A stretch of 64,000 nt of DNA, from the NCBI GenBank assembly GCA_963969345.1, contig OZ017766.1, positions 8,060,001 through 8,124,000 on the forward strand, in the 5' to 3' direction. The notes beneath the pieces are model-generated. The model had not been told where the DNA came from, made no database searches, and saw only the letters and a program-made list of their open reading frames with translations. The DNA comes from Turbatrix aceti (lineage: Eukaryota > Nematoda > Chromadorea > Rhabditida > Panagrolaimidae). The position numbers and the translations under genes are program-made. This document shows, in pieces, positions 36,009-59,818 of this stretch; position 1 is the first letter of the stretch, and every line of letters starts with the position of its first letter.

Positions 36009-36774
36009 TTATCCCAATATTTCCTCTAATTCAGTGTATTCATTGTAGTAGATGATTTCTGTATGAGCATTGGCACCTAGGACACTGATGGTGATGTTTG
36101 CCGTATAGCCTTCTTCTGCTTCTATGATTTGGACTTCCTGTAAGTTACGTTTACGGTAACATTTTCAACTATGTCAAATCACTTACAAAAGTTGAACCGT
36201 CCACTGCCACAGCAGGATCGCAGCCCGTCGTATTGGATGACAGCAAATTGGAACTCTTTGCTGTGGTTTTTGACGCCTGGGTCGTCTTTGCTTTTGTCTT
36301 GGACGCTTTTGTAGTCGCCGTTTTCGATGCTTTGGTTTTCTTCGAACCTCGCTTTCGACGTTTGCTACTTTCTTGTTCGATCGTAAACGCGGCGTCATCC
36401 AGTGTTACGTTCTTTAGACAATTTGTTTGCCCCAAAAGAAGGTCGTAGTAGCAGACTTCTTCGTCGTAGTCATTGACTTGGAGACATGTGATGTTGTAGA
36501 TGTCGACAAGGATGACGGTCTCGCTCATCTTAGTGTAGTAATAGTTGAAGGTTTCAACCATGTTGTAAGCCAATTCCTACAATGCTTATATATAAGGTAT
36601 ACGTATACGTTGTTGAATCCTATATCATGTAACGAAACCCACCAAGAGTTGTAGGTTGTCTAGTGCGATCTGAGTGTCGGTGCCACTCTCAAGACCAACT
36701 CCATCGTCGCTGTCGGCGTGTACATTGATGACGAGTACAACATAGCACAATGCAGTGATTCCTATCACCTTCAT
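36009..36774 (-). CDS. Array gene 1: secreted cystatin-like protein with furin site and Lys/Thr tract (subfamily A)
   Basis: Exons are 36643-36774, 36187-36576 and 36009-36137, all joined in phase 0, for 216 residues. The signal peptide ends INVHA and is followed by an acidic DSDDGVG segment. Exon 2 gives a helix (ELAYNMVETFNYYY), a strand into NITC, an acidic loop and EVCYYDLLLGQTNCLKN. RRKRGSKK (furin-type) and a Lys/Thr/Ala/Ser-rich tract (about 50 residues) come next, then TGCDPAVAVDGSTF. Exon 3 carries EVQIIEAEEGYTANITISVL. LLLGQTNCLKN resembles the LGRTTCTK strand of type-2 cystatins, and exon 3 resembles their final FQIYAVPWQGTMTL hairpin. The QxVxG inhibitory loop is absent. TATA box TTTTATATC (36812-36820) lies about 40 nt upstream. 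The cystatin relation is inference; the gene model is well supported by its eleven paralogues. Confidence 0.85.
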
Positions 36775-37548
36775 ACTTGATATTGAACACGGTTGATTTG
36801 GATTGGCTTCGTTTTATATCGGTCTTGCTCGCATGAATAGCGATAATGATTCATAGGAGGGATCTATTTAATGATGTGTTTAGTTATGTTTAGTTAACTG
36901 TTTCTATGCTTTGGTTAAAGATAATCGGTTGGTTACACGTATTACCGCAATTTTGTTTAATTGGATGCACTTTTATTTATTATATTTATTACCAAAACAT
37001 AGTTTTTCGATATAGCAAAGTTCGTTGTCTGTCAATCACAAGATTGCTGTGATAAGGATAGCAACTAAAAAGTCGCGATAAAATGAGTCAGCAACGTTTG
37101 CTGGATTCAATCAAACCAAGATCATTTATTGATTGATATGGACATCGAACGCAAAGCCGCTTAAAAAACGACCTGCGCAAAAACCAAGAAGTCCAAACGA
37201 GCATTCGAGAATGTGCATTTGCAACGCGACTGATGCCGAAACGATGATTACGGTGTTCTATGTGCATTATTTTTTTTTGTTTTATTTTTATTTGGGATTT
37301 TCAATTAGTACCTGTTAAAGTTTTAAAACCCGAATAAACATGCGAAATTTTTGAATTTACAAAGTCTGACTCGCGGCTGACTAAAGTTCATTAGGTCCTG
37401 AAACGTCTCAGATTCAGGGGCGGCGTCACACTGCAAAACCGGTAGTACCGCCCCCCCCCTTCGCCTTGTTAGCATAAATGGAAGCGTTTTCCTCTATTTT
37501 ATCAGTGATACCTGCTTTTCACCTCTGAGTCGTCGTCGTTTTCTTATC
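36775..37548. other. Divergent intergenic region
   Basis: Holds the promoter of array gene 1 (reading left) and of the zinc-binding gene at 37549 (reading right). A GC-rich stretch (37415-37470) reads CAGGGGCGGCGTCACAC and then CCGCCCCCCCCC. This could be a transposon end, but no partner was found. Confidence 0.45.
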
Positions 37549-38751
37549 ATGTCGTTGCTGCCTTCCACAATCAAAGCCATAAATGCTGCTCTTGCAAGAA
37601 TTTATAGTGAGTGATTTTTTACGTTGGTAACGATATTAATAAAAATTTCCACTTTTTCAGAACAAATGTCGAAGGTCACAGTAGGTTCCGATGCTTATAT
37701 CGGGTTCATTGACCAATCGCATGCATTGACGGAACGTCGAAAACTACTGTCCACGTACACCGAGGAAATGGCCGGACGCATCGAAGGCGTCAACGTCGAA
37801 ATAGATGAGAAAATCGATACCTTGGAAGGTGAACGGAAGGAGCGCATTGCCAACATAATCCACGAATACGAAACCAAGACCGCTCAGTTACCTGCGATCG
37901 CTGACGTCGAAGTGGTCGTGGAAGAGGAAGCTGAGCCAGAAGCACCCCTCCCGCCGGCTGAAATTATTAGCAGCACTGTTCAAACTGTCAAAAAGTACGC
38001 CGAAAAGTATTTTGACGAATATAAACCTATTTCTGATCTGCACAATTTCTTTCACGCAGCTGCGAGTTCTTATTGTGAAATGAACGTTTCGAAACCAACT
38101 GATGCTGATATTGATTTCTGGATAAAGTGGTTATTGTCCCATAAAAAGTTGCCAACAACCACGTCGTATCCATTGGCGCTTACCGATGTCGATCGGGTTA
38201 TTCATTCTTTTGATAAACATGAACGTTTTGTAATTCTGGACACATCGCTTTGCGTCATTTTAACAAATCTTCCTGAGGTTATACCATCATTCTACCGCCC
38301 CTATTTGTTAATTTACGATTCGGTATCCCAACGATTTTTTCCCGTTTCTATAAAATCTAAAAATAAAGTAAGGTTTACACTTCTGCTCTTTTTTCTGTAC
38401 TTGTTACTTTAGAAATATGTCTGCTACAAATGCTTTAGGTTTGAACTAAACCCTTTCAAATGCCAACAACGACACTGCCCCATCTGCCTGCGCAAAGGCG
38501 AACGCTCTTTGTGTTTCAAGCCATCTCCGGAATCCAAACCATTCATTTGCTCCAAGTGCAACGCTTTTTGTCAGACGACTGACTGCTTCGAAGCCCATCG
38601 CCGAATCTGTCCTCTGCCGGTTCAGCGAATCCACAACGAAGTTTTTGAGCTTTTCAAAAGTATCTGCTATTATACAGGCCCGGAGCCGCTGGACAGCGTC
38701 GAATTCTCCGATACAAGTGACTACTGCGATGGATGTGTTCTCATTTTGTAG
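37549..38751 (+). CDS. Coiled-coil protein with C-terminal Cys/His zinc-binding cluster, unknown function
   Basis: Exons are 37549-37606, 37661-38367 and 38413-38751, with introns of 54 and 45 nt, for 367 residues. There is no signal peptide. Residues about 45-100 look helical and charged (YTEEMAGRIEGVNVEIDEKI), followed by an acidic-proline linker (EVVVEEEAEPEAPLPPAE). A globular middle part precedes a C-terminal cluster in exon 3. The cluster reads CYKC...KCQQRHCPIC, then FICSKCNAFC, then a DCFEAHRRIC segment; it has enough Cys and His pairs for two or three zinc sites. The CxxC...CFxxH..C pattern recalls Cys-rich segments near DNA polymerase B genes of Maverick/Polinton elements, but that is only a resemblance. 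A second, inverted and frameshifted copy lies at 40781-41900 on the other side of array gene 2. Confidence 0.75.
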
Positions 38752-39041
38752 TCGGGCATTGTTTTTTTCCGATTGCACAAAAATTAAAACATTCAAACAT
38801 TTACATATTTATAAATAAGTAAATTTTTATGTGTACTCTGTAATAAACTTTTATTTCACATCAACAATGTTAGTCGGTCTATAACACTAATCGACCGGCA
38901 ACATTTTATTGTGTATACATGTAGTACATACACACGATGTATACGTGTATATGTACATACAAGCAGGTACGTCTTATAATTAAAAGCGTCTACAATTTCG
39001 ATATATTTATTTATTAGGGCTCCAGAATTCCGACCGATCAA

Positions 39042-39803
39042 TTATGAACCATATAATTCCTCCAATTCAGTTTCAAGATTGTAATAAATGATTTCGGTAT
39101 GAGCATTTGTACCTAGGACACTGATAGTCAAGTTCGCAGTATAGCCTTCCTCTGCTTCTACGATATGGACTTCCTGAAAGTTGCGTTTACTTTAAAATTT
39201 TCAATTTTTTTTCAAATAACTTACAAAATTAGTATCGGCTACCGCCACAGCAGGATCGCAGCCCGTCGTGTTGGATGACAGCAACTTGGAATTCTTTGCT
39301 GTGGTTTTCGAGGCCTTTGTTGTCTTTGTTTTTGTCGTCTTGGTTGCCTTCGTAGTCGCCGTTTTCGATGCTTTGGTTTTCTTCGAACCACGCTTTCGGC
39401 GTTTTCCGTTTTCTTGTTCGATAACAATTGCTTCGTCGTCGATTGTGATGTTCTTTTGACAGTTTGTTTGGGCTAGCAAAAGATCGTAGTAGCATACTTC
39501 TTCGTCGTAGTCGTTGACTTGGACACATGTGATGTTGTAGATGTCGACAAGAATGACAGTTTCCGTCATCGCTGTGTAATAATAGTTAACAATTTCAACA
39601 ATGTTGTAAGCCAGTTCCTACAACGAATGTCAGTACGTTGTTGAATTCTATATAGATGCAACAAAACCCACCAATAGCTGAAGATTGTCTAGCGGAATTT
39701 GAACATCAGTGCCCTTCTCGAGACCAACTCCATCCTCGCTATCGGCGTAGACTTTAAAGACAATTACAGCACAGCAAAATGCAGTGATTCCGATCACTTT
39801 CAT
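39042..39803 (-). CDS. Array gene 2: secreted cystatin-like protein with furin site and Lys/Thr tract (subfamily A)
   Basis: Exons are 39672-39803, 39225-39617 and 39042-39173, for 217 residues. The signal peptide ends VFKVYA. The architecture matches array gene 1: helix, NITC...EVCYYDLLLAQTNCQKN, KRRKRGSKK, a tract rich in KTTKTKTTKASKTT, TGCDPAVAVADTNF, then EVHIVEAEEGYTANLTISVL and a short ELEELYGS end. TATA text TTTTATATTT lies at 39841-39850. It sits alone between the two zinc-binding gene copies. That suggests an inverted segmental rearrangement moved genes 1 and 2 apart from the compact array beginning at 44.3 kb. N-glycosylation sites NIT and NLT are present. Confidence 0.85.
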
Positions 39804-40780
39804 GCTTGTAGGATACTCCGACGTCGGATTATTGCTTTTCTTTTATATTTGTCTGCTCCGTACCGTACGGATAACGATGCTGATGCAAGGGATGTGGCGG
39901 ATTTGTTTAATGAGTTGTTCGTAGTGCACAATTTGCGAACATTTCAACGGATTTTACTCCTACGTTGTAGTTTTTTCGTTGTTAATATCACGGATAATTG
40001 GTAAATGACGCGTATTACCTCAGTTTGTCCTAATAAGTGGATTTACGTCTTTTTAGATATCGATCATTATAGGCTCTGTTAGTTTTAGAGATAATCTCTG
40101 TAATTTTTTCCGTTTTTTACAGAATTTTCCTTTACAAACAATTTCTGTGTTTTGCATCTATAATAATATAATAATGTTGATGTATTTTTTTTTAGTTCTG
40201 AAAACCTGCTTTGGAACCTCGAGTAAAATCTGATACGAATATACATAATTGAAACAATAAGCTCTTGTTTGATAGAAGCAGCAGTTTTGATCATTTTGAA
40301 CTCGGCTGTCATGTATAATTTTGAAGTTGACAAAACATTACATGAAAATCTGAAAAGCATCGATGAAGTTAAGAACGGACAACGATAGTTGACAAGGAAA
40401 CAATAACTAAATAAGTACATAAGTATATATTCTACCGGAGTTTATGTACGTTGTAGCGCCATGTAGTCAGGCTTTATACACTGGAATGTTGTGCTTATGT
40501 ATGTACTTCAGCATGCTTTTATACTCTTTGAAGCTGAAATTTAAATCCCCGATTATACCCTACGTAGCCTACATGGATACAAGGATTAAAGCAGCCCGGG
40601 TTTTGCAAAAACACAAAAATCAATAAGAAATTTACACAAATGATCACTTTTTGATTTTTTCAAACACTGCTCTTACTGAATATTTACTGTCAGCTAGGAT
40701 TAATGCAGATCCGACATCTATTTTTATTTTTCAATTTGACGCAATCGCAAAAACAAAGTACACGAAGGAAACTTTTCCGA
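39804..40780. other. Intergenic
   Basis: No supported gene. CCCGATTATACCCTACGTAG followed by CCTAC at about 40547-40571 is a copy of the CACGTAGCCTAC-type motif found upstream of several array genes, here about 750 bases from gene 2. Short frames lack splice support. Confidence 0.5.
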
Positions 40781-41900
40781 TTATTTATCGATACTTTTGA
40801 TGAACTCGAGAACTTCGTCGTGGATTAGCTGAACCGGCAAAAGGCAGATTTGGCAATGGGCTTCGTAGCAGTCAGTCGTCTGACAAAAAGCGTTGCACTT
40901 GGAGCAAATGAATGGTTTGGATTCCGGAGAGGGCTTGAAACACAAAGAGCGTTCGCCTTTGCGCAGGCAGATGGGGCAGTGTCGTTGTTGGCATTTGAAA
41001 GGGTTTAGTTCAAACCCAAAGCATTTGTAGCAGACATATTTCTGAAGTAACAAGTACAGGGGAAAATGCAGAAGTGTAAAACTTACATTATTTTTAGAAA
41101 TTCTAGAAACAGGAAAAAATTGTTGGAATACCGAATCGAAAATTAACAAATAGGGAAAGTATGGTGGTAGGACCTCAGGAATTGGTTAAAATGACGCGAA
41201 GCGATGTGTCCAGAATAACAATCAGCATATTTTTATTAAAAGAATGAATCACCCGGTCGACATCGGTAAGCGCCAATGGATACTGCGTGGTTGTTGGCAA
41301 TTTTGCCATGGTCAATAAACCATTTTTCAAGGAATCAATATCCGCATCAGATGGTGTCCAAACGTATTTTCCCTTACAAGAACTCGCAGCTGCGTGAAAG
41401 AAATTGTGCTGATCAGGAGTATGTTTATATTCGTCAAAATACTTTTCGGCGTACTTTTTGACAGTTTGGACAGTGCTGCTAATAATTTCGGCCGGCGGGA
41501 GGGGTGCTTCTGGCTCAGCTTCCTCTTCCACGACCACTTCGACGTCAGCGATCGCAGGTAGCTGAGCGGTCTTGGTTTCGTATTCGTGTATTATGTTGGC
41601 GATGCGCTCCTTCCGTTCACCTTCCAAGGTATAGATTTTCTCATCTATTTCGACGTTGACGCCTTCGATGCGTCCGGCCATTTCCTCGGTGTACGTTGAC
41701 AGTAGTTTTCGACGTTCCGTCAATGCATGCGATTGGTCAATGAACCCGATATAAGAATCGGAATCCACTGTGACCTTCGACATTTGTTCTGAAAAAGTGG
41801 AAATTTTTATTAATATCGTTACAAACGTAAAAAATCACTCACTATTTATTTTTGCAAGGGCAGCGTTTATGGCTTTGATTGTGGAAGGCAGCAACGACAT
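40781..41900 (-). pseudogene. Inverted copy of the coiled-coil/zinc-binding gene, frameshifted
   Basis: Exons are 41843-41900, 41087-41788 and 40781-41041, homologous to the gene at 37549 exon by exon, with the same splice positions. The N-terminal part (MSKVTV... YTEEMAGRIEG) is nearly identical. Relative to the + copy, a 2-base deletion at about 41179-41183 shifts the frame and gives TGA at 41175-41177, just after VILTN. A codon-sized deletion follows a little downstream. The zinc-binding exon (KYVCYKC... DCYEAHCQIC) is still open in its own frame but ends early at IKSIDK, lacking the last ~25 residues. A true pseudogene or a sequencing error at the 2-base site are the alternatives. Confidence 0.75.
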
Positions 41901-42715
41901 ATTTAGATGACGATATTTTTTTCAGTTGCAATATTTTTATGGCATGGCATGAACTTTGTGGTGATTTTTCAATGAAAGCGTACAATAGAAGCACTTGTTT
42001 CCGAACATCTCATTCGAGTCAGTCTTTGCTTCAATATCCCGGATCACAGATCCTACTGTAGTGCAATTCTCCCTCTCCGGCTGATCTTAAGATCTGTAGT
42101 CAGAATTCCCATGAAATGACTAATATATTATTTGAGTCAAATGTTCTCTTTTTTTTTGACATGGGATAACCGGCAACAGTTGGTTTTTTACGTATTGCTT
42201 TGCGTATGTTGCAAATCAAAAATCATTCGTGCTATTTTTTTGACTACTTTCTCTCAAGCCAAAGGTCGATTTTTCACAAAAAAAAGCAACTGCTGCATCA
42301 AAACACAATTCATGGATTTGAAACCTGGCAAATCGGATCCTTATTTATTTACACCCCTTTGTCGTTGTGAATGGCGTCGGCTATCCCGATTAAGGTGGCG
42401 TTGGCTGCAATAATTTTTACTGCGTATGCGCAATAAAAAAAACAAGGCAAAACCCGATGCTTTTCTCCAAATCAGGTGAAATGTTGTTTTCGGGAATTCA
42501 CAAAGTATGTATTCAAAACCCTTTTTTTGTAATCAACTGATTTCATTCAAAAAAAATTTCCTTAATGCAATAAAACGTTTTATTTAGAATTCAAAGTCGA
42601 CAAAATCAATATCACTCAAATCACTTGCATACAAAAACTTTATAGTAAACTTTGTGCACGGCACTCAAACAAAGCAAGATTTTCAGAGAATCGAGTACGT
42701 ACGTAGTTTTGCTTT
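41901..42715. other. Intergenic
   Basis: No gene seen. AATAAA for the minus-strand peptide gene lies at about 42570-42580 (reverse of TTTTATTTAG). Confidence 0.5.
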
Positions 42716-42970
42716 CTAACGGCACCCACCGCAGCAGTAGCAGTTGCCTCCAAACCAGGGCTTGTAGGAAAAACGGTTGCCGTCGCATTTTCGGCAGGCT
42801 GCATCCCTGCCGTTCCAGTCGTTGTGAATGCACCACGTGTTCTCGATGTCGTGATACTTGCTGCAGGTAAACTGCTTCGTGGCAGCCCCTCCCACAACGT
42901 CGGTCCAATCTCCGTTAACCGCCAGGGCAATGGCAGCCATGACGACGAACACAACGGCCAATAGCTTCAT
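42716..42970 (-). CDS. Small secreted eight-cysteine peptide
   Basis: Single exon, 84 residues. The start at 42970 gives a textbook signal peptide (MKLLAVVFVVMAAIALAVNG), probably cleaved before DWTDVV. The mature peptide of about 64 residues has eight cysteines spaced C-x10-C-x11-C-x2-C-x14-C-x-C-C-x2-C and ends GGCR. Even cysteine number, small size and secretion fit a disulfide-stabilised defence or signalling peptide. I do not recognise the spacing as a named family, and it does not match six-cysteine ShK domains. It lies on the same strand as, but is unrelated to, the surrounding array genes and has no intron, unlike them. Confidence 0.75.
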   Translation of the reverse strand: MKLLAVVFVVMAAIALAVNGDWTDVVGGAATKQFTCSKYHDIENTWCIHNDWNGRDAACRKCDGNRFSYKPWFGGNCYCCGGCR

Positions 42971-44259: not shown

Positions 44260-45038
44260 TTAGCCTGAATTTTCCTCATATTCTTCATATTCAGTAAAGT
44301 AATTGTAATAGATGATTTCCGTATGGGCATCGGTACCCAAAACACTGATGGTCATGTTCACGGTTACGCCTTCATCTGCTTCTAAGATTTTTACTTCCTA
44401 CAAGTTTTGTTTACGGTAACCTTGTAAACATTTCATCAAAACAACTCACAAAAGTCGAACCATCCACCGCCACCGCTGGATTGCAATCTGCGGTGCCGGA
44501 TGACAGTATCTGGGAATTCTTTGCCGTCGTTTTAGACGCTTTTGTGGTTTTTGATTTCGTCGTTTTTGTTTTTGGTGCTTTTGTTGTCTTTGCTTTCGAT
44601 GCTTTGGTTTTCTTTGAGCCTCGCTTTTTTCTGCCGTTTTCCTGTTCGATCACAAATGCACCATCGTCGAGTTCGGTTGTAATATTTTTAATACAATTTG
44701 TTTTACCAAACAAAAGATCATAGTGGCAAACTTCTTCATCGTAGTCGTTGACTTGGAGACATGTGATGTTGTAAATGTCGACGAGAACGATTGTTTCATT
44801 CATTGCAGCATAATAATAGTTGAAGTCATCCACTATGTGATAAGCCAGTTCCTGTATCAAATATGTTACCATACTTTTTGGGATTAGATGCAACAAGACT
44901 TACCAAGAGTTGAATATTGTCTAGCAAAATTTGAGTTTGAGTGCCGCTTTCGACGCCTTCTCCATCGTAGTAACTGCCGGCGTAAACATTGATGACAAGT
45001 AAGGCAGAACAAAATGCAGCAATACCGATTACCTGCAT
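44260..45038 (-). CDS. Array gene 3: secreted cystatin-like protein with furin site and Lys/Thr tract (subfamily A)
   Basis: Exons are 44904-45038, 44450-44851 and 44260-44397, with introns of 52 nt each, for 224 residues. The signal peptide ends INVYAG. Exon 2 carries ELAYHIVDDFNYYY, NITC...EVCHYDLLFGKTNCIKN, the basic site GRKKRGSKK, the tract KTTKAPKTKTTKSKTTKASK and ADCNPAVAVDGSTF. Exon 3 carries EVKILEADEGVTVNMTISVL and ends EYEENSG. Unlike most paralogues the aromatic residue after EG is Val. TATA text TTTATATTCT is at 45081-45090. This is the first member of the compact run of ten genes spaced about 0.7-2 kb apart. Confidence 0.85.
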
Positions 45039-45673: not shown

Positions 45674-46444
45674 CTAGCCCATATATTCAGCATAATATTC
45701 CTCAAATTCAGTGAAATAATTGTAATAGATGATTTCGGTGTGAGCATTTGCACCCAGAACACTGATGGTCATGTTCGTCGTCCAGCCTTCATCTGCTTCT
45801 ACGATTTGGACTTCCTGAAAATTATGTTAGTGATAAACATTTTTGTAAAAATTTTATCACTAAGACTTACAAAAGTAGAACCATCCACTGCTACAGCAGG
45901 ATTGCAGCCCGTTGTGCTGGATGACAGCAACTGGGAACTTTTTGCCGTGGTTTTAGACGCTTTCGTTGTCTTTGCTTTTGTAGTCTTTGTCGACTTTGTA
46001 GTCGCCGTTTTCGATGCTTTGGTTTTCTTTGAGCCTCGCTTTTTTCTTCTGCTTTCTTGTTCAATTGTAAACGCGTCATCATCGACTGTGATATTTTTCG
46101 TACAATCTGTTTGGCCAAACAGGAGGTCGTAATAGCAGTGTTCTTCATCATAGTCGTCGACTTGGAAACACGAGATGTTGTAGATGTCGACAAGGACAAC
46201 GGTCGCAGTCATCGCTGTGTAGTAGTAGTTAAAGTTGTCAACCATGCCGTAAGCCAATTCCTGCAAAACGTGCATGTTGTACTGTTTGAATCTTAGATAC
46301 GACAAAACTGACCAAAAGCTGAAGATTGTCCAATGAGATTTGAGTTTCGGTGCCGCTCATGACACCCACTCCATCATCACTGTCGGCGTAAACATTCACG
46401 ACGAGTAAGGCAGAACAAAATGCAGCAATTCCAATGACCTGCAT
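45674..46444 (-). CDS. Array gene 4: secreted cystatin-like protein with furin site and Lys/Thr tract (subfamily A)
   Basis: Exons are 46313-46444, 45871-46260 and 45674-45814, with introns of 52 and 56 nt, for 220 residues. The signal peptide ends VVNVYA, followed by DSDDGVGV. Exon 2 has ELAYGMVDNFNYYY, then NISC...EHCYYDLLFGQTDCTKN, RRKKRGSKK, the tract KSTKTTKAKTTKASKTT and TGCNPAVAVDGSTF. Exon 3 reads EVQIVEADEGWTTNMTISVL and ends EEYYAEYMG. TATA text TTTTATAT is at 46487-46494. The N-terminus is almost identical to gene 3 (MQVIGIAAFCSALLV), so these two are sister copies. Confidence 0.85.
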
Positions 46445-47018: not shown

Positions 47019-47785
47019 TCAATAGTAACCTAAATATTCCTCAAATTCAGTGTAAAAATTGTAGTATATAATTTCGGTGTGCGCTTTGTCACCCAGAACA
47101 CTGACTGTAATGTTGGTAGACCAGCCTTCATCTGCTTCTACGATGTGAACTTGCTGAAAGTTTCATTTACAATTGAACCTGAAACTTTGACAAACAACTT
47201 ACAAAGGTCGAACCGTCTACCGCGACAGCAGGATCGCAACCCGTTGTGTTGGATGACAGCAGCTTGGAACTCTTTGCTGTGGTTTTTGAAGCTTTTGTAG
47301 TCTTTGTTTTGGTAGTTTTCGTTTTGGGCGTTTTTGTAGTTTTTGATTTCGATGCTTTGGTTTTCTTCGAGCCACGCTTTCGACGTTTTCTGTTTTCTTG
47401 TTCGATAGTAAACGCAGGATCGTCGATTGTGATGTTTTTCAGACAATTTGTTTGGCCAAACAAAAGATCGTAGTAGCAAACTTCTTCGTCGTAGTCGTTG
47501 ACTTCGACACAAGTGATATTGTAGATGTCGACGAGAACGACAGTTTCATTCATCCCTGTATAGTAATAGTTAAAGTTGTCAACCATGTTGTTAGCACATT
47601 CCTGTAATTTGTGTACGTTATGTTTTCTGAATAATAAACATTACTAAACCCACCAATAATTCTACATTGTCTAGCAATAATATTTTTTGAGTGCCGCTTT
47701 CAAGACCAACTCCGTCATCGTTGTCGGCGCGCACATTGAAGACAACTAAGACACAACACAATACAGTGATTTTGATAACTTTCAT
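47019..47785 (-). CDS. Array gene 5: secreted cystatin-like protein with furin site and Lys/Thr tract (subfamily A)
   Basis: Exons are 47654-47785, 47203-47601 and 47019-47153, with introns of 52 and 49 nt, for 221 residues. The signal peptide ends VFNVRA. Exon 2 begins ECANNMVDNFNYYY; the extra Cys at its second residue is unusual in the family. It continues NITC...EVCYYDLLFGQTNCLKN, KRRKRGSKK, a KTTKTPKTKTTKTKTTKASK tract and TGCDPAVAVDGSTF. Exon 3 begins QVHIVEADEGWSTNITVSVL. TATA text TCTTTTATAC is at 47821-47830. Five cysteines in the mature protein leave one unpaired, raising the possibility of dimer formation. Confidence 0.85.
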
Positions 47786-48536: not shown

Positions 48537-49325
48537 CTAATCAGAATATTCGGCGTCATATTCTTCAAGTTCTGTGTAAAAATTGTAGTAGATGATTTCG
48601 GTGTGTGGATTGTCCCCCAGGACACTGATGGTCATGTTTGTCGTCCAGCCTTCATCAGCTTCTACGATTTGAACTTCCTACAAGTTTCGTTTACGGTAAC
48701 ACCTTGCATTTATGTTTTTCATAAAAATGACTCACAAAAGAAGAACCATCCACTGCCACGGCGGGATTGCAACAAGTTGAGTTCGCTGACAACAACGGGG
48801 AATTCTTTACTGTAGTTTTCTTTTTTGAAGCTTTTGTCGTCTTCGTTTTTGTAGTCTTCGTTTTTGGCGTTTTTGTTGTTTTTGATTTCGATGCTTTGGT
48901 TTTCTTCGAACCACGCTTTCGACGCTTTCCGCTTTCCTGTTCAATCGTAAATGCGGGATCATCGATTGTGATATTTTTCAGGCAACTTGTTTTGCCTAAT
49001 AAAAGATCGTAGTAGCAAACTTCTTCGTCGTAGTCGTTTACCTGGAGACATGTGATGTTGTAAATGTCGATAAGAACGACAGTTTCGTTCATTTTTGTGT
49101 AGTAGTAATTGAAGTTGTCAACCATGTCGTAAGCCAATTCCTGTAACTCGAGACTGTTGTACTTTTTGTAATACTAAACGTTCAAAAATCTACCAATAGT
49201 TCTAAATTGTCTAACGAGAATATTTTTTCAGTTCCATCTTCGACGCCAACTCCATCGTCGCTATCGGCGTAAACTTTGAACACAACTAGAGCACAAAAAA
49301 ATGCAGTGATTCCGATAACTTTCAT
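48537..49325 (-). CDS. Array gene 6: secreted cystatin-like protein with furin site and Lys/Thr tract (subfamily A)
   Basis: Exons are 49194-49325, 48736-49140 and 48537-48677, with introns of 53 and 58 nt, for 225 residues. The signal peptide ends VFKVYA, then DSDDGVGVEDG. Exon 2 holds ELAYDMVDNFNYYY, NITC...EVCYYDLLLGKTSCLKN, KRRKRGSKK, the tract KTTKTPKTKTTKTKTTKASK with an extra KKKTT, and STCCNPAVAVDGSSF. That last stretch has an added cysteine next to the conserved fourth one. Exon 3 reads EVQIVEADEGWTTNMTISVL and ends EEYDAEYSD. TATA text TTATATACCA is at 49361-49370. Confidence 0.85.
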
Positions 49326-50040: not shown

Positions 50041-50801
50041 TCACCCGTATAATTCCTCTAATTCAGTGTACAGATTGTAATAAAGAATTTCGGTGTGCGC
50101 ATTGTCCCCCAAGACACTGACGGTCATGTTTACCGTGTAGCCCGAATCTGCTTCTACGATTTGAACTTCCTGCAAATTGTCATTTGTATACAGTAACAAT
50201 TTTGATGTTACCAAGCAACTTACAAACGTAGAACCGTCCACCGCCACAGCAGGATCGCAGCCCGTCGAGTTAGATGACAGCAACTGAGAACTTTTTGCTG
50301 TGGTTTTCGAAGCCTTTGTCGTCTTTGTTTTAGTAGTTTTAGTTTTTTTTGTAGTCGCCGTTTTTGATGCTTTGGTTTTCTTCGAGCCTCGTTTTTTTCT
50401 TCTGCTTTCTTGATCGATTGTAAACGCGTCATCATCGATTGTGATGTTTTTGGTGCAATCTGTCTGGCCTAGCAAAAGGTCGTAGTAGCAAACTTCTTCG
50501 TCGTAGTCATCGACGGATACACACGTTATGTTGTAAATATCAACGAGGACTACAGTTTCATTCATCGCAGTGTAGTAATAGTTAAAGTTGTCTACCATGT
50601 CGTAAGCTAATTCCTGAAACTCGTTTCTTCTGTACATTTTGAATTTTATCCAAATACAAGAAAACTCACCAGAAGCTGTAAATTGTCCAATGAGATTTGA
50701 GTTTCAGTACCGCTTTCAAGGCCGACTCCTTCATCGCTGTCGGCGTACACGGCAAAAACGAGAAAGGTAGCGCAAAATGCAGTGATTCCGATCACTTTCA
50801 T
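50041..50801 (-). CDS. Array gene 7: secreted cystatin-like protein with furin site and Lys/Thr tract (subfamily A)
   Basis: Exons are 50670-50801, 50224-50613 and 50041-50169, with introns of 56 and 54 nt, for 216 residues. The signal peptide ends VFAVYA, followed by DSDEGVGL. Exon 2 has ELAYDMVDNFNYYY, NITC...EVCYYDLLLGQTDCTKN, SRRKKRGSKK, the tract KKTKTTKTKTTKASKTT and TGCDPAVAVDGSTF. Exon 3 reads EVQIVEADSGYTVNMTVSVL and ends TELEELYG. TATA text TTATATTCGT is at 50841-50850. This is the last subfamily A member; the next genes to the right belong to a clearly different subfamily. Confidence 0.85.
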
Positions 50802-51394
50802 ATTTGTATTCTGATACTGTAACTTTGGATTCGCTTCTTTTTATATTCGTCTGACTCGCATCAACAATGAGAATGTTCTGGATCTATTTGATGATGTGTA
50901 TAATGTTAATGAATTGTTTCCTGTCACACGATTCAACAGATTTAACAATTTGTACCCGAACTTGGAATGTTAATAAAACTTTTTGTGTGCATGCACGTGT
51001 TGATGTCTGACGACTATGGGTTACACATGTTACTACATGTTGACTTAATTAGATTTATGGTATTCATAAATCTGATTGTAGCTTATAAATCTATAAATCT
51101 GACTTTGCAGAAAAATTTATGCATTTCAAGTTAGTGACACTATTTAGAAAGCTTTTCTTAAGTCAAAAATAATATGATGTGCTTTTACGGTCATTGGCGC
51201 TTGATCAATAATATTTATTTCATCTAGATGTCATTTTGGATACCACATGTGTCAACATTAGAAACTGTTTTGATGCTGATCACTAATCATGCATTTACCT
51301 GTGTAGGCGTCATTCCGCAAACCTGAAAAGGGATTTAACATAAATCGCTCGTCCGTTGCTGTGATGGATTTTACTCACAGCAGACCTAATGACG
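50802..51394. other. Intergenic between subfamilies A and B
   Basis: Gene 7 promoter at the left, otherwise AT-rich. No gene was seen. Confidence 0.5.
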
Positions 51395-52201
51395 TCAGTC
51401 ATCGTCCTCGTCTTCTTCATTTTCTTCGCTTTCATCAGGCGATCCAAAAATGGCTTCGTATAAGTCGTAAGTCATGGATTTGGTCAAAGTTTCGTCATCT
51501 TTGATGGCGAATGTGATGTTTACCGTCCAGCCTATCCATGCAACCATAGCATCGACGTCCTGAAAAAAAAAAACATTTCCTTTGGATCTTCAGCAACATC
51601 CAAAATCTTACAAACTGATCAACAGGAGTTGTCTGTCGTGCTGCGTTACACTCCGCGTCCACCGTGAATACCGGAGCATCGGTAACCACTGTTTTCGTTT
51701 TCGTTGTCTTTGTTTTTGTTGTCTTAGTTTTTGTCGTTTTTATAGCTTTCGTGGTTGCAGTACTGTTGTCAGTTGCCGCAGCCGCCTTGGCCTTGGCCTT
51801 TCGCTTCTTTCTGCGGGTATACGTCCATCCCGCGCCTCCAGTCGGAATTACCTTCTCGCACTCGGTTTTACCAAATCGTACTCCGTAAAACGCATAATCC
51901 TCAATATACTGCTTCGAAATGAAGTACGAGATATTGTAGATGTCTACCAGAACCACGGAAGGGCCCCCACCGGGGTAAAAGTAGTTGTAGTAGGATACTA
52001 TATCGTAGCCGAATGACTGAAGAGTTTTTTACTTGGTTACTGTACTTAAGGGTAAAAACATACCAATATGTCAAGCGGGGTCAAATCATACTTGTACAAT
52101 GGATCGTCTGGATCTTCGAGGATAACGGTTTCTGTTTGGCCGTGGACGACAGAGCATCCCCACAATGCGAAGATGGCCAGGAACAAACTGATACGCGCCA
52201 T
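51395..52201 (-). CDS. Array gene 8: cystatin-like secreted protein, subfamily B with acidic tail
   Basis: Exons are 52064-52201, 51612-52016 and 51395-51559, with introns of 47 and 52 nt, for 235 residues. The signal peptide ends CSVVHG, then TETVILEDPDDP. Exon 2 starts SFGYDIVSYYNYFY and reads NISY...EDYAFYGVRFGKTECEK. The first two family cysteines are both tyrosine here, while the third and fourth (TEC, AEC) remain. The basic site RRKKRKAK and an Ala-rich then KTTKTKTT tract follow. Exon 3 reads DVDAMVAWIGWTVNITFAIK and ends in the acidic tail SEENEEDEDDD. TATA text is at 52251-52260 and CACGTAGCCTAC at 52311-52322. Confidence 0.85.
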
Positions 52202-52310
52202 GCAGGCTTGATTCAGATGCTGTAATTCTGCGTTTTCGTAGTTAAAAATGCTTTTATAAGGTTCCATCGAAAGGAAAGAGGTAAATCCGTTCCATCCCCC
52301 GATTATAGCC

Positions 52311-52322
52311 CACGTAGCCTAC
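52311..52322 (-). promoter_or_regulatory. Shared upstream motif of array gene 8
   Basis: CACGTAGCCTAC, an imperfect palindrome about 110 bases before the ATG and about 50 bases beyond the TATA box. Close variants occur at the same place before genes 9, 10, 11 and 12. Confidence 0.5.
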
Positions 52323-52967
52323 TCCGTATTAATGGGTATTACTTAATCTGATTACCCGATCTAACCCAACGTAGCAAGCTTAGCTGAAGATATGAGTTTT
52401 TCTGCGTGTAATGTTTGTCAAACAAAAGTGCCTACATTCAATGCATACACGTTTGCATAGTTGTTATAGGATTTAATTTATCTCGGTGCGTTGATAACTA
52501 CGTTTTTAAGTTCCGATTGTTTCCGTAAATACGGATATAGATTAAATCCAGTATTAAAAAAATCATTGATTTGCGTTTTTTTTTTTACGTTTCCAACTAC
52601 ATATAGTTTCGAGTTAATTAACAAGCGTGGTTACGTAAATATATATGTAAAGGCGCCGGGAGCTTACAATGGTTCTCCATTATTTTGACCGACCTTATGT
52701 TCGTCCGTTTTATGTTAGTCTTACATTAGTACGTTAGGTTGAATTTCACATCAAGAATGGTGTTGGTTTAACTTTTACACCGCGCCTTCACAATAACACA
52801 ATGCCACATAACAATTTTACATCAGAAGACCCTAATTTTTGTTTTCAATGTATAACCCGTAGTTCGAGCACAAATTGCTGTGTATACTGTAAGCTATAGT
52901 TGTCGAATGTTAGTACGCAGTCTCGCTCGCAGACCAAACACTTTCTTAACAATTCATACTCGAATAC

Positions 52968-53102
52968 ATGTGTTCACGTTGTCGTGATGTGAAGCCAGAT
53001 GCCAAATCATCCCAGGCTTTGGCTGGACGACAGTGTCCAGAATGTTTTGCGCGCACATACAGATATAATTCAGTATCAAAAACAGATCATCGATTAGCGT
53101 AA
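52968..53102 (+). pseudogene. Possible orphan first exon resembling CTU2/NCS2 zinc region
   Basis: A 44-residue frame reads MCSRCRDVKPDAKSS... GRQCPECFARTYRYNSVSK. The CxxC...CxxCF...(Y)R..S pattern resembles the N-terminal zinc-binding segment of the tRNA 2-thiolation protein CTU2. A GTAAGTAAG donor overlaps the end. No continuing exons were found nearby on +, so it is at best a displaced fragment. The resemblance rests on spacing and a few residues only. Confidence 0.3.
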
Positions 53103-53371
53103 GTAAGTACATTGTAGTTTCGAGTTAATCAACAACCACGGTTGTTAAACATAAATTTAGGCTAAAATACATACATACATAGTTTTCGATTATGAGAGTC
53201 TCACAATGAGACCGACATTAGACCCGTTCACGTTTATACAATCGACACTACAAATTTATTCGATCAAACGTTTTATGAACACAGCTAAGAAGAAAACATC
53301 GGAATCCAAATTTTAAAATGTAGTTGTCATTGATCACATGAGAAACTATTTATGTTGACGTCGCAAAAAAC

Positions 53372-54202
53372 CTAGTACTCTTCGTCTTCATCTTCATCGT
53401 AATCTTCCTCATCATCCATACCATAAAGCAATTCGTAAATGACTTGCCATAAGTCGTAGTAAACAATTTTGGTTTGAGGATTGTCTCCTTGGACGGTAAA
53501 TGTCATATTAAGTATCAAATCATCCCAAAAAATCACCGCATCGAGATCCTAAAAAAATCCATAACAAATTTTTAGCAAAATCCAAATGCTTACAAACTGC
53601 TCGACAGGATTTTTCTGTCTTCCGGCGTTGCACTCTTCGTCTAGTACGGTAAATATTGGAGCCTCAGTAACCTCCGTTGTTGTTATAGTCGTCTTCGTTT
53701 TGGTTGTCTTTGTTTTGGTTGTTTTTATAGCTTTTGTGGTGCCTGAGCTGTCAGCTGCCGCAGCCGCAGCCTTGGCCTTAGCCTTGCGCTTCTTCCTGCG
53801 ATCATACACCCATCCGGTGCCACTGGGAATGACTTTCTGGCATTCCGTTTTGCCTAATCGTACTGAGTAAAAGCAGACTGGATCCGTGTAGTAGTAGTAA
53901 TATTTTGATCGATAGCACGTAATGTTGTATATGTCGACCAGAACCACAGATTGGGAATCATAGGGGTAGTAATAATTGTAGTATGACACTAAATCGAAGC
54001 CGTGTGACTGAAGAATTTTTTTTTAATCTGAGTGTTGCAGTGCTCAAGAACCTACCAAGATGTCCAGTTTGGTGATGTTCATTTCTTCCATTGTGTCGTC
54101 TCCATAGTAGTACCCCTCATAATAATAGTATGGTCCACGCACAGAACAGTCGATGCATCCCCATAGAACGCTGATGGTAAAAAACAAAATGATATTTCCC
54201 AT
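53372..54202 (-). CDS. Array gene 9: cystatin-like secreted protein, subfamily B with acidic tail
   Basis: Exons are 54056-54202, 53594-54007 and 53372-53548, with introns of 48 and 45 nt, for 245 residues. The signal peptide runs to about CIDCSVRG, followed by a Tyr-rich stretch (PYYYYEGYYYGDD). Exon 2 has SHGFDLVSYYNYYY, NITCYRSKYYYYYTDPVCFY, RLGKTECQK, the basic site RRKKRKAK, then Ala-rich and KTTKTKTT tracts and EECNAGRQKNPVEQF. Here the loop between the first two cysteines is Tyr-rich instead of acidic. Exon 3 reads DLDAVIFWDDLILNMTFTVQ and ends DEEDYDEDEDEEY. TATA text is at 54254-54263, and the CACGTAGTCTAC motif follows at 54292-54303. Confidence 0.85.
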
Positions 54203-54291
54203 TGGTGTTGTAACGTTTTAACGTTTAAAAAGTGCTAAATACACCCCAATTTACTTTTATACTACCAATTAGTAAAAATTCAAATCATACG

Positions 54292-54303
54292 CACGTAGTC
54301 TAC
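54292..54303 (-). promoter_or_regulatory. Shared upstream motif of array gene 9
   Basis: CACGTAGTCTAC, about 90 bases upstream of the ATG and about 30 bases beyond the TATA-like CTTTTATACT. It is the same motif as before genes 8 and 12. Confidence 0.45.
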
Positions 54304-54906
54304 GCCGTATTAGAGCGTATTTACTAACTAAGCCTGTAATAGGATCGAATGTTGTGGATACAACTCAACGTTCATGTGTTTATATAAACGCGTCGATATT
54401 AGTGTTGATCTATAACATTTATCACTTCTTTGGTATCAGGATCTGATATGATATTTAAAAAAAGGTATCATGCTATGATGATTAGAAAGAACATGTCTCT
54501 AATCCAACCTTTGCATTCCGGTTATATAACAAAGCGGAACGGAATGCCAAGTCAATTATTTGGTTATTTCGTTTTATGATATTTCGAGATATTGTAATAT
54601 CAGCCGTCTGATATTACGATATCAGATGTGATATCTATTTTCGATTTTTGCCAACATGAGATCAGATAAGTGCTTATCTAAATCCTTTACACACCGATGA
54701 AATTTTTTTATTTCATTAACATTTACTTGATAATATTGGTATTTTCATTTTTTGTGTTACGTTTGACCTGAATGAATTTACAATGGCACACACAAAAGTT
54801 GATAATGGTTCTTATAGATTTATGCATACAAGTAACTCATGGTAGCGTGGTAATCAGATGCTTTCAAAAAACAAAATTGTCGTAGATGAAGAAATACACA
54901 TACTCA

Positions 54907-55034
54907 TCAGGCGTACATCTCTTCGACGTAAAAGTTGTAATACAAAATTTCAGTATGGGTGATGCCTAGAATGTGTATAGTCGTGCTCACCGAGTAGCAT
55001 TTGACGACTTTAATGATATTGATGTCAAATTAGT
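54907..55034 (-). pseudogene. Relic third exon of an array gene
   Basis: Read on -, the sequence is closely similar to the last ~120 bases of array gene 11 (57639-57770): ILGITHTEILYYNFYVEEMYA and a stop. Further upstream VKCYSVSTTIHI matches EGYSVNMTMHI with a frame-disturbing insertion. No exon 1 or 2 accompanies it. A former twelfth-to-thirteenth gene was evidently lost here, or this is a partial duplication from gene 11. Confidence 0.7.
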
Positions 55035-55247
55035 TAACGGGATCCTCATGCACTCGTTCGACAACACAAATGCAAAAAAATATGATTTTTTATTTATTCA
55101 TTACAAATTTACATATTTGTCAGCCACTGACGTTTTTATATTTTTATTGGCACTAAAACGTCTGAATCGTGGTTGGCAGGGGTTACAGCATGAGGTGTGT
55201 AATATGCGTCACAAAAAACCTAGTACTAAATATGTGCCATGGTGACA

Positions 55248-56125
55248 TTACTCTTCTTCGTTATTGTCGTCGTCATCTTCATTTTCATCTTCATCTTCAT
55301 CTCCATATTCATTTAGGTATGCAGGGGCATAAACCTGACTATCATATCCAGATCCAAATATGAGTTTATAAAGATCGTAGTACACATTTTTAGTTTCAGG
55401 ATTCTCTCCTTGGATGGTAAATGACATATTCACCACCCAGCCTTCCCATAAAATCCTTGCATCAAGGTCCTGAAAAAAATTCATAACATATTTGTAACAG
55501 TATCTAAAAAATATTATGCTTACAAACTGTTCGACTGGATTTTTCTGTCTTCCCGCGTTGCACTCTTCATTTAGTACCGTGAATATCGGAGCATCGGTAA
55601 CCTTTGTTGGTGTTTTAGTCGTCTTCGTTTTGGTTGTCTTTGTTTTGGTCGTTTTCAAAGCTTTCGTAGTACCTGTGCTGTTATCAACAGCCGCAGCCGC
55701 AGCCTTCGCCTTAGTCTTGCGTTTCTTTCTGCGGTTAAACGTCCATGCAATGCCACTCGGAATTTCTTTTTGACATTCAGTGTTTCCAAATCGCACTGAG
55801 TAAAAGCAGACTTGTTCGACATAGTACAGAGATATATAACACGTGATGTTGTAGATGTCGACCAAGACTACGGATTGAGAAGCAAAGGGGTAGTAATAAT
55901 TGTAGAAACTCACTAATTCGTAACCATATTCCTAAATAGTTTTTTCTTGAATACTTGAATGAACATTACAAAACTTACCAAGACGTTTAGCGTGGTGATG
56001 TTCAACAATTCAAATGGATCATCTTCATCTTCGATGATAACGGTTTCCGGATCTGATCTACCATGGACTACGACGTAATACACCGATAATACACCGAGTG
56101 TCAGGAACAAATTGATACTAGCCAT
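55248..56125 (-). CDS. Array gene 10: cystatin-like secreted protein, subfamily B with long acidic tail
   Basis: Exons are 55979-56125, 55524-55931 and 55248-55469, with introns of 47 and 54 nt, for 258 residues, the longest subfamily B member. The signal peptide ends YYVVVHG, then SDPETVIIEDEDDP. Exon 2 carries EYGYELVSFYNYYY, NITCYISLYYVEQVCFY, RFGNTECQK, RRKKRKTK, an Ala tract, KTTKTKTTKTKTTK and EECNAGRQKNPVEQF. Exon 3 reads DLDARILWEGWVVNMSFTIQ and ends with about 25 mostly acidic residues (GDEDEDENEDDDDNNEEE). TATA text CTTTTATATG is at 56173-56182. The downstream neighbour is the relic exon at 54.9 kb. Confidence 0.85.
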
Positions 56126-56552
56126 GTTGGCTGGCTTTAGTTTCCTTAATGCGGTGTTTGTACCCTAAATTGCTTTTATATGTACTCAATTCGAGAAATC
56201 TAAATCTGTCAAGTTGCCACGTTTAAAAATTATGCACGTGGTTTACACCGTATTAGAACCCATTAAGCCGGAAACTACTAAATATTTATCATAAGGCTGA
56301 TTGTTGTGGATTCAAATCAACGTAGATCAGCATAGCAAGATTAGCTGAAAATACGCTACACAGGAATGTGATTATTATTAGATCAACATTCGCTTAATGT
56401 TGATGATTTCAGTTTTGTGTTTTGATAGTTCAGGTAAATGCAGGTGCGGATTAAAGTCTTTTTGTCCGGTTCCGGGAATCGTTAGGCTCCTATGTATGTT
56501 TCTCAAAAAGTATAGTTCCAAGATTAAAGTTTATATTGAACGTTGAACATTT
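56126..56552. other. Intergenic upstream of array gene 10
   Basis: Promoter of gene 10 with CACGTGGTTTAC at 56235-56246, about 110 bases before the ATG. GCATAGCAAGATTAGCTGAA (about 56330) repeats text from upstream of gene 8 (about 52370), showing the upstream DNA was duplicated with the gene. No gene was seen. Confidence 0.55.
56235..56246 (-). promoter_or_regulatory. Shared upstream motif of array gene 10
   Basis: CACGTGGTTTAC, a diverged version of the CACGTAGCCTAC element, about 110 bases before the ATG and about 55 bases beyond the TATA box. Confidence 0.4.
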
Positions 56553-57189
56553 TGTCGCGTCACGCGAAGTATTCGAACTTCCCGCGTTCTGGTCTCGAGG
56601 CGAAATGGAGGAGCGCGTGCGCATCGAGCTCAACCTCGGCCCGATCCTCTGGAAACTTCGCGACCAATCAACGAATGCGAACGTTCCCACAGATCTCCTC
56701 TTGTATCTTCCAGAATATTCTGCCCCGATTCGTATATAAGGCTCTCATTCTGCCCCTGATTGATGATGTATTGATGATGTATTGTTGATGATTAGTTGAT
56801 GATTGGTTGATGTATTGTGGATATTGTTGTTGTTGGTTATTGTCTGTGTTATTCTGTGTTTATTGGGTGTTCCAATAAACCTCTGTGCTTTACTCCTGTG
56901 CCCCACGTAGAGCGACACTAGCGACCAGCTAACCTCATCGCCTGGTCCTAACGCTCGCTCTACCCTTCTTGGACCAGCTAACCTTATCGCCTGGTCCCAC
57001 TCGTTTCCTCCGACCGGCAACTCGGTGCCCGGTCATCTCACTCATCACCTACACCCACGGGCGCGTGTAGGAACCTCCTGGGTGAGTTCCTCTTTCTCTT
57101 TGGTTTTCGGTCGCTTGCCGCCTCGTTCTAGGCAACGCGACACCCGCGCCACCACCCCAACCCAACCGGGAGCCTGGTGTGCTCCCACA
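56553..57189 (+). mobile_element. Solo LTR of an LTR retrotransposon
   Basis: 637 bases beginning TGTCGCG and ending CTCCCACA (TG...CA), flanked by a 4-bp target duplication ATTT at 56549-56552 and 57190-57193. Inside are a TATA-like GTATATAAGG (about 56732), and AATAAA (56873-56879) followed by a GC-rich downstream part. This matches the U3-R-U5 layout of a Ty3/gypsy- or BEL-type LTR. There is no internal coding region, so the element is reduced to one LTR by recombination. The GC-richness and short open frames inside are unlike the surrounding DNA. Confidence 0.8.
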
Positions 57190-57638
57190 ATTTACAGAAA
57201 AAGTATTTATGAAATAAAGCGATGTTAATATGAAGCTTATACACTGTGGATACAAAAGCTTTCAGATGCAAAGCGGTCTCAATGTTGCAAAATTCGATGC
57301 TGCTTAATGCATTCGATCAACCTAAAACGATTTATTCCGGTAACCTAAAAGAAAAGTTGAAAAAAGCATATTTGCTTTATTGTGCATTTTCTGTTGTAAA
57401 AAGATGAATGTAGGTTGCCGAAAAACTTGAGCATTCGGTAGGGTTTTTGTATGGGTATCCAAAAGTACTTAGTATGATCAAATCTTAAAAATTGCAAAAA
57501 AAATTTGCTTTCCTGTTCTCCACTCAGAAAAAATGTTGAAATAAATTTATTCATGCTCACAAGTAGCTCATCGTGGTAATCAGGAAGCTACTATCAAAAA
57601 AAAATCGTCGTAAGTAGAAGAACAATAACACATACTCA

Positions 57639-58502
57639 TCAGCTGTACATTTCTTCAAGTTCAACGTAAAAGTTGTAATACAAAATTTCTGTATGTGGTG
57701 TGTCGCCTAGAATGTGCATCGTCATGTTGACCGAGTAGCCTTCGGTGGCTTCGATGATGTCGATATCAAATTGATCGATGGGTTCCGTCTGTTCTGCCGG
57801 ATTGCATTCGTTTGACGACGAATGCATCGGTGAATTCGTCGCTTTTGTCGTTTTTGCAGCTTTGGTTGTCTTTGTTTTCGTTGTCTTTGTTTTTGTCGTT
57901 TTTGTTTTGGAAGCTTTAGTTTTGGATGCCGCGCGTCTTTTTCGAGCGTTTTCCTGCACAAATGTGAATGCTTCGTCTGTTATCGTAGTGTTTTTGTAGC
58001 AGTTTGTATGACCCAGCCGAAGTTGGTAATAGCACACTTCTTCGTCGTAGTTGTTGATATCGTGACAGGTGACGTTGTACAGGTTGACGAGAACCGCGGT
58101 TTGGTTGGATGCAACGTAGTAGTAGTTGTAGAGGACGACTATGTTGTAGACGAGTTCCTAAATTGTTATACATTATATGTATTTTGTGTTATGGAATTAA
58201 ATTTTTTGTTGAATCCTAAATTGTTATACATATATGTATTTTGTGTGACACCATGTACATATGTATAAACTGTTATACATATATGTATTTCGTGTGACAT
58301 CATATACATATATGCATAAATTGTAATACATATATGTATTTCGTGTGACACGAATCGTGTCATAATAGAATAAACTTACAAGTTTTTCAAGATTGTCGAG
58401 TTCGACGACGGTAACGGTGCCTTTTTCTTCTCCAACGCCATTATCATCTGTGCAGCTGACGATGGCAAAGAGGGAGAAAACCAGCAAACCAGCCTGCCAC
58501 AT
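57639..58502 (-). CDS. Array gene 11: cystatin-like secreted protein lacking intron 2
   Basis: Only two exons, 58380-58502 and 57639-58157, for 213 residues. Exon 2 and exon 3 of the other members are fused in frame (...EPIDQFDIDIIEATEGYS...) at exactly the usual junction. The signal peptide ends AIVSC, then TDDNGVG. The body has ELVYNIVVLYNYYY, NVTC...EVCYYQLRLGHTNCYKN, the basic site ARKRRAASK, a KTKTTKTKTTKTKTTKAAK tract, NECNPAEQTEPIDQF and the final EGYSVNMTMHILGDTPHT. The loop between cysteines 1 and 2 is HDINNYDEEV. Intron 1 is enlarged (222 nt) by a minisatellite. A TATA-like TATTTATACA lies at 58571-58580, somewhat farther upstream than in paralogues. Confidence 0.85.
58160..58370. 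repeat. Minisatellite in intron 1 of array gene 11
   Basis: About four copies of a 45-55 base unit containing TTATACATATATGTATTT(T/C)GTGTGACA. Paralogous introns here are about 50 nt, so the repeat accounts for the whole enlargement. Confidence 0.8.
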
Positions 58503-58940
58503 ACTGTTGTACAACAGTAGAAAACGAAGTGCGATGTAGAAATGATACATACGTAGCCGAGATTCCTTCATATTTATACATGTAGCCCCAATGAAAATGT
58601 AGACATCAAAAACACAGTATCGAGGATGAGCTTCTCGTTAAAGGCTACGCGATTGTTATCCTATCTAGATTATCCCCAGCCCAGAAAACATTTTCCAGGT
58701 ATGTTTTACTTTACTTGCCTAATTAAATTTTGTAGCCTTCATCTTCCACCTCCGCGGATTGGGTTGGATTCTGAATTCGAGCCTGACGTGCATGCGCAGT
58801 ACGCAGATTGTAATCGGATTTACAACAGATCTCTTTTTGGACGGACGTCAATTAGCGTTCAACTAGAGTTTATGTATTATTTGTCTCGCTTAACACCTCA
58901 ATAGTGCACAAAAAAGTTGGTTACTGTGATCGTTATTGGC
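58503..58940. other. Intergenic between array genes 11 and 12
   Basis: TACGTAGCC at 58550-58558 is the gene 11 version of the upstream motif. A 92-residue + strand frame at 58626-58904 has no recognisable content and includes a plausible small intron. I do not call it a gene. Confidence 0.5.
58550..58558 (-). promoter_or_regulatory. Shared upstream motif of array gene 11
   Basis: TACGTAGCC, a partial copy of the CACGTAGCCTAC element about 50 bases upstream of the ATG and next to the TATA-like text. Confidence 0.35.
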
Positions 58941-59818
58941 TTAGCCAGAACCAGCCCAGGCTTCTATGTAGTCGTAGTAGATCTTTTGTTTGTGTTCTCC
59001 GACAATGATTGTGAGGTTGGTTGTGTAGCCTTCCCATGCTATCGTAATTCGGACGCCCTGAAAAATTTAAAGATGTTGCTTATATTTGAATTTTAATAAA
59101 ATTTCGAAAAAAACTTACGTATGGGTCTTCATTTTCAAGTCCCCTGGCTGGGTTGCACTCATTATCGACGTCGAAGACAGGCGATTGGGTCACTGGCGCG
59201 ACAGTTTCGCCCTTCTTTGTCTTCTTTGTCTTTGCTGGCTTTTTCGTAGTCGTTGTCTTTGTTTTGGTTGTTTTGGTTTTGGTTGTCTTGGTTTTGGTTG
59301 TCTTTGGGGCTTTAGTAGTCGTCGTCTTCTGCTTCTTAGCCTTTGTGTTGGAAGCCTTCCTCTTCTTGCGCCCGTAATAATAGTTGTAATCATAGTACCA
59401 ATCGTACCACGCAAATCCGTTAAGATCGGTTGATACATTTTTGTGGCAATCCGTCGATGCCATTTGCACGTCGATGAGACAAATTTCCTCGTCGTAGTTT
59501 ACGGATGCGAGACAAGTTACGTTGTAGATATCCGTGAGAACAGCAGTTCTGTTGCTACCTGAGTAGTACCAGTTGTAGATGTTCACCATGTCGTAGCTTA
59601 ACTCCTGGAAAGTTTTTTATTGACTATAAATCTGAATAAAAAAAATAAAAAAAAGAACAAACAAGCTTTTCAAGAGGATCCAAAGGAATAAGAGTCAGCG
59701 GATCGTCTTCATCTTCGAGTAGAACAATTGCAGGCGTTGTCTGGGCATCGGTAAAGAAGTATGCAAGACTGCAGCCTAGAATCACACTGACTACAGCGAA
59801 CCAACGTCGCTGAACCAT
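58941..59818 (-). CDS. Array gene 12: most divergent cystatin-like secreted protein
   Basis: Exons are 59663-59818, 59119-59604 and 58941-59057, with introns of 58 and 61 nt, for 252 residues. The signal peptide spans about residues 8-25 (FAVVSVILGCSLAYFF), then a TTPAIVLLEDEDDP stretch. Exon 2 holds ELSYDMVNIYNWYY, NVTC...EEICLIDVQMASTDCHKN, a Tyr-rich YYDYNYYYGRKKRKAS containing the furin-type RKKR, and the longest Lys/Thr tract of the array. Short KKTKKGE segments and DNECNPAR follow. Exon 3 reads GVRITIAWEGYTTNLTIIVG and ends EAWAGSG. TATA text TTTTATATCT is at 59861-59870 and CACGTAGCCTAC at 59913-59924. It is the distal end of the array. Confidence 0.85.

Follow-up and report, generated by a model that had tools for sequence, protein, structure and literature searches.

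A secreted nematode protein family with a predicted cystatin fold and a convertase-type site between two conserved cysteines

Members of the CRES subgroup are secreted cystatin-fold proteins in which cysteine-protease inhibition has been lost (PMC2784779, PMC3343081), and the first of these sources describes lost inhibition and new functions, mostly in innate immunity, as the prevailing trend among vertebrate cystatin families. Fetuin-A, also of the cystatin superfamily, is reported to form two disulfide-joined chains after proteolysis (PMC9340150). The nearest nematode precedent found is the multi-domain 'cystatin-like' MCD of Trichinella spiralis, described as secreted, degenerate in its motifs and proteolytically processed, with no inhibition shown in an assay that used papain only (PMC2680962). 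Here we describe a tandem array of twelve genes, g1 to g12, from the nematode Turbatrix aceti, in a window of 64,000 nucleotides (contig C1, 8060001-8124000; the genome comprises 28 contigs and 59.9 Mb). Their products, in which four cysteine positions are designated C1 to C4, appear to descend from type-2 secreted cystatins, lack the inhibitory QxVxG motif, and carry a convertase-type basic site (R-x-K/R-R) and a Lys/Thr-rich tract between C3 and C4.

The cationic peptide of cathelicidins is C-terminal and is released, whereas the tract described here is enclosed by C3 and C4 within the fold and would stay tethered. We know of no convertase site or cationic insert in the CRES subgroup. In fetuin-A the connecting peptide follows the two cystatin domains (PMC9340150); here, in contrast, a cut would fall within a single cystatin domain. 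The build also differs from that of Trichinella MCD, which has two or three cystatin-like domains per protein that are cut apart, in a processing blocked by 1,10-phenanthroline, and a conserved intron 4-5 residues past the first cysteine; the portion of that account drawn on here mentions neither a basic site within a loop nor a Lys/Thr tract (PMC2680962). Relative to type-2 cystatins (PF00031; for example Ascaris Al-CPI, PDB 4it7, or L017 of the same genome), the family lacks QxVxG, goes undetected by Pfam and has no second disulfide in the last hairpin, and it adds C1 and C2 in the first hairpin, the convertase-type site in the C3-C4 loop, and a C-terminal strand and helix. A search of the open-access literature brought up no protein in which a convertase site sits within a cystatin-fold domain, which agrees with the view of the first-pass annotation that no family of this build has been described; nematode protein sets were outside the scope of that search, and the family may be annotated in them under another name.

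The array lies on the minus strand between the stop codon of g1 (position 36009 of the window) and the ATG of g12 (59818). Each of the twelve models can be read without interruption from ATG to stop, and the introns are GT..AG and in phase 0. There are three exons in eleven genes and two in g11, where exons 2 and 3 are fused and intron 2 is absent. Exon 1 encodes a hydrophobic N-terminus (12/12, judged by hydropathy), exon 2 covers everything from the helix to a little beyond C4, and exon 3 encodes the last hairpin. The order of elements is a helix segment, an N-x-S/T before the position of C1, C1, C2, C3, the basic site, the Lys/Thr tract, C4 and the final hairpin. A single layout had been claimed for all twelve proteins, and this order was indeed found throughout, the departure being g8, which lacks both C1 and C2 where the other eleven have them.

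The array belongs to a larger family. Four protein searches located 39 main-exon places genome-wide: besides the 12 of the window there are 27 on contigs C1, C2 and C4; the family counts that follow cover the 31 members read, namely the 12 in the window and 19 outside it. The R-x-K/R-R site falls between C3 and C4 in all 31, at 14-44 residues from C3 and 6-67 residues from C4, and is flanked in every member by the cysteines that line up with the first cystatin disulfide (TxC...C, after the third strand) and are presumably paired. Both C1 and C2 are present in 27/31, spaced by 9-14, jointly absent in three (g8 and two members at 1.17 Mb on contig C2) and mismatched in one; this joint loss suggests that the two are bonded to each other. 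Of the 31, 24 have a sequon immediately ahead of the C1 position.

The case for cystatin ancestry rests on structure, profile and gene organization. The first-pass annotation had taken the proteins for rebuilt cystatins and had proposed structural comparison of g4, g7 and g10 and profile comparison as checks. We modelled g11 (58157-57642; model m8336df0a695a) and, of the genes proposed, g7 (exon 2, the translated in-frame intron and exon 3; model m6a178c0abf0e) with AlphaFold2, and the fold predicted for g11 is one helix with an antiparallel sheet. When the g11 model was compared with known structures by VIA-align, rows 1-23 were all cystatin-superfamily chains, with a nematode cystatin on top; the g7 model agrees with the cystatin fold in the helix and first hairpin only. 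Profile-profile comparison with cystatins (HHalign) gave a collinear match scoring above 300 of 300 shuffles, and it sets C3 and C4 against the cysteines of L017, so that the proposed coincidence of these positions with the first disulfide of type-2 cystatins is supported at the level of alignment. The place and phase of an intron are, moreover, common to the family and five cystatins of the same genome.

Other cystatin hallmarks are kept unevenly. QxVxG is absent from all twelve window proteins, as had been claimed, but the hairpin that bears it in cystatins was wrongly given up for lost: it is still predicted in g11 (strands 19-33 and 40-54), with C1 and C2 at residues 31 and 42, placed symmetrically on the two strands close to their ends at 33 and 40. 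In place of QxVxG there is a loop that a C1-C2 disulfide probably closes. A pre-helix GxG occurs in g1-g7 and g11 and not in g8, g9, g10 or g12, its alignment to the cystatin Gly being uncertain. No cysteine follows C4 in the 12 window proteins, save a CC doublet at C4 of g6, and the last exon of four cystatins of the same genome is likewise without one.

The Lys/Thr tract has a narrower distribution than the site. In the window genes, all of which have the site, the 42-67 residues from site to C4 include 9-20 Lys and 11-22 Thr, whereas the 19 relatives outside have 6-22 residues there and no such tract. A trio at 1.25 Mb on contig C2 instead carries a Lys/Thr stretch upstream of the site (C3 to site 44 residues, with 9-10 Lys and 8-9 Thr). 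The first-pass annotation had presented a furin-cleavable Lys/Thr insert as the defining element; the convertase-type site does hold across the family, but the tract does not define it. Used as a genome query, the g11 tract matched at least 8 places at E <= 0.01, all within the array (g1-g7 and g11); g8-g10 and g12 were unmatched among the matches listed. For g1-g7 (NG86, 21 pairs), the ratio of mean nonsynonymous divergence (dN) to mean synonymous divergence (dS) comes to 0.19 for the N-terminal part and 0.12 for the tract; the two core parts give 0.11 (first) and 0.23 (second), and mean dS is 0.74-1.10. These genes are under purifying selection, and with values this low the array layout is not a product of chance. 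The ratio of 0.12 in the tract means, therefore, that it is kept at the protein level despite the 15-base repeats in its coding DNA.

We consider it somewhat probable that these proteins are non-inhibitory derivatives of a type-2 cystatin that a convertase cuts into two chains tethered by a disulfide and that, in the window array, bear a flexible cationic tail. The fold would have been kept from the ancestor and the cysteine-protease inhibitory motif would not. Bridging the first hairpin, a C1-C2 disulfide would immobilize the loop with which true cystatins enter the cleft of a protease; a glycan on the sequon next to C1 could cover the hairpin further and hinder docking in a papain-like cleft. 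The R-x-K/R-R site is predicted to be accessible, to judge from low model confidence in its region, and a furin-type convertase would cut it during secretion. Because the cut would fall between both cysteines of the ancestral disulfide, the expected product is two tethered chains and not a freed peptide. In the array proteins, the 42-67 residues preceding C4 in the second chain would then form a free and disordered Lys/Thr stretch, cationic in charge, attached to a folded head. Its most likely use would be extracellular binding of polyanions, such as microbial surfaces, glycosaminoglycans, mucus, or sperm or egg coats. This role is a guess that draws on charge, secretion and the number of gene copies, with histidine-rich glycoprotein and cathelicidins as the analogues.

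A bolder statement, which we offer tentatively and consider doubtful, is that the cystatin has been turned inside out: its hairpin disabled by a new disulfide, a conserved convertase site placed in a different loop, and a Lys/Thr polycation grown on two different sides of the cut (the window array and the trio on contig C2), exposed by cutting and tethered by the old disulfide. It would be an invertebrate counterpart of the cathelicidins with the effector inside the domain. If the derivation is correct, this family, with its 39 main-exon places in one genome, clearly illustrates how an inhibitor fold can lose its function and acquire a cationic tail that is processed yet tethered. It would also offer a testable model of how secreted proteins with new functions may arise from cystatins in nematodes, and imply that Pfam can miss such descendants.

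Several observations weigh against a cystatin origin. Pfam scans of 7, 6 and 8 sequences returned no PF00031 row, where the control L017 matched at 1.3e-17; neither PDB-sequence nor single-profile searches gave a match to a cystatin; single-sequence comparison found nothing significant, nor did Foldseek alone with a predicted model. The homology claim is mostly upheld, by the g11 structural matches, the profile similarity and the common intron place, and finds no echo in these other searches. The alternative is a nematode secreted family that reached a similar helix-plus-sheet arrangement independently. We regard such convergence as unlikely, given the shared intron place and phase, the collinear profile match above all shuffles and the nematode cystatin heading the structural list. 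It is very improbable, at the other extreme, that these are active cystatins with a decorated loop, still inhibiting some cysteine protease. QV does occur at the first loop, by sequence, in g1, g2, g3, g4 and g6, and the W of the second-loop PW position is kept, as xGW, in g4, g5, g6, g8 and g10 (Y, V or L in the other seven); the uniform loss of QxVxG, the C1/C2 pair flanking the hairpin and the sequon beside it in most members argue otherwise.

Two further explanations concern the C3-C4 loop. The tract could be a mucin-like or crosslinkable spacer, with O-glycosylated Thr and transglutaminase-acceptor Lys, in structural proteins of an egg, cuticle or seminal coat or matrix. The KTKTT pentad-like runs and 15-base coding repeats, the Tyr-rich helix, the acidic tails of g8-g10 and the weak Pfam matches to mucin-like glycoprotein, under cut-off, are in keeping with this; we nevertheless find it rather unlikely, since the 19 relatives read outside the window keep the site without the tract following it, so that a matrix function of the tract would leave the family unexplained. 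Alternatively, the R-x-K/R-R loop between C3 and C4 could be a bait that binds and inhibits furin/Kex2-type convertases, the scaffold having exchanged cysteine proteases for serine proteases as its targets. Some CRES cystatins, at least, are reported to inhibit prohormone convertase 2 (PMC2784779), and it is from this report, together with the trend described in the same source, that we take polyanion or microbe binding as the first guess and convertase inhibition as a rival. The long and variable loop, unlike a rigid canonical inhibitor loop, and the low confidence of the g11 model from residue 71 on (the C3-C4 loop) make a bait quite unlikely.

The first seven genes, with exons in minus-strand order, are g1 (36009-36774; exons 36774-36643, 36576-36187 and 36137-36009; 216 aa), g2 (39042-39803; 39803-39672, 39617-39225 and 39173-39042; 218 aa), g3 (44260-45038; 45038-44904, 44851-44450 and 44397-44260; 224 aa), g4 (45674-46444; 46444-46313, 46260-45871 and 45814-45674; 220 aa), g5 (47019-47785; 47785-47654, 47601-47203 and 47153-47019; 221 aa), g6 (48537-49325; 49325-49194, 49140-48736 and 48677-48537; 225 aa) and g7 (50041-50801; 50801-50670, 50613-50224 and 50169-50041; 216 aa). 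They are followed by g8 (51395-52201; 52201-52064, 52016-51612 and 51559-51395; 235 aa), g9 (53372-54202; 54202-54056, 54007-53594 and 53548-53372; 245 aa) and g10 (55248-56125; 56125-55979, 55931-55524 and 55469-55248; 258 aa). The C-terminal tails of these three (51395-56125) have 13-15 acidic residues among the last 25, a charge opposite to that of the Lys/Thr tract. Between g9 and g10 lies a decayed, g11-like exon-3 fragment on the same strand (54910-55044), with an in-frame stop and gaps (tblastn 62.5% identity, E 1.7e-12). The gene g11 (57639-58571; exons 58571-58380 and 58157-57639) encodes 236 aa from its first ATG; translation may in fact start at an in-frame ATG further on, given that the hydrophobic stretch begins only at residue 29. 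The last gene, g12 (58941-59818; 59818-59663, 59604-59119 and 59057-58941; 252 aa), is the one in which site and C4 are farthest apart (67 aa).

An inverted duplication (91-92%) flanks g2 (37536-38268 / 41181-41913, and 38299-38664 / 40790-41155); the duplicated gene encodes a coiled-coil-like protein with a Cys/His-rich end, and its left copy has no Pfam match at E <= 0.01. Elsewhere in the window are an elongation factor G-like gene on the plus strand (20451-24704; GTPase, domains II and III, C-terminus), a mitochondrial calcium uniporter-like exon (30415-31131; PF04678, E 1.7e-22) and a tandem duplicate (9216-10161 / 11449-12393; 91-92%) with paired open reading frames of ~200 aa and no Pfam match at E <= 0.01. 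A nearly perfect 510-base inverted repeat (31978-32487 / 32678-33187; 97%) with a 190-base spacer is perhaps a mobile element or hairpin. Direct repeats (1-300 / 13100-13399, 99%; 818-1117 / 13917-14216 / 18004-18303, 86-89%) accompany two equally long open reading frames (148-991 and 13247-14090) and may represent a repeated element. Two other cystatins of the genome lie on contig C2: L058 (346700-347300), degenerate and secreted-looking, without QxVxG and with the cystatin intron place kept, is a possible second route to a non-inhibitory cystatin, and L020 (5284958-5285206) is a cystatin domain within a longer open frame, which we take to resemble a cathepsin F-type prodomain. In keeping with a nematode source, the genome also has 43 SL1-like RNA matches, all under the Rfam cut-off; the two that were read both carry the SL1 leader sequence.
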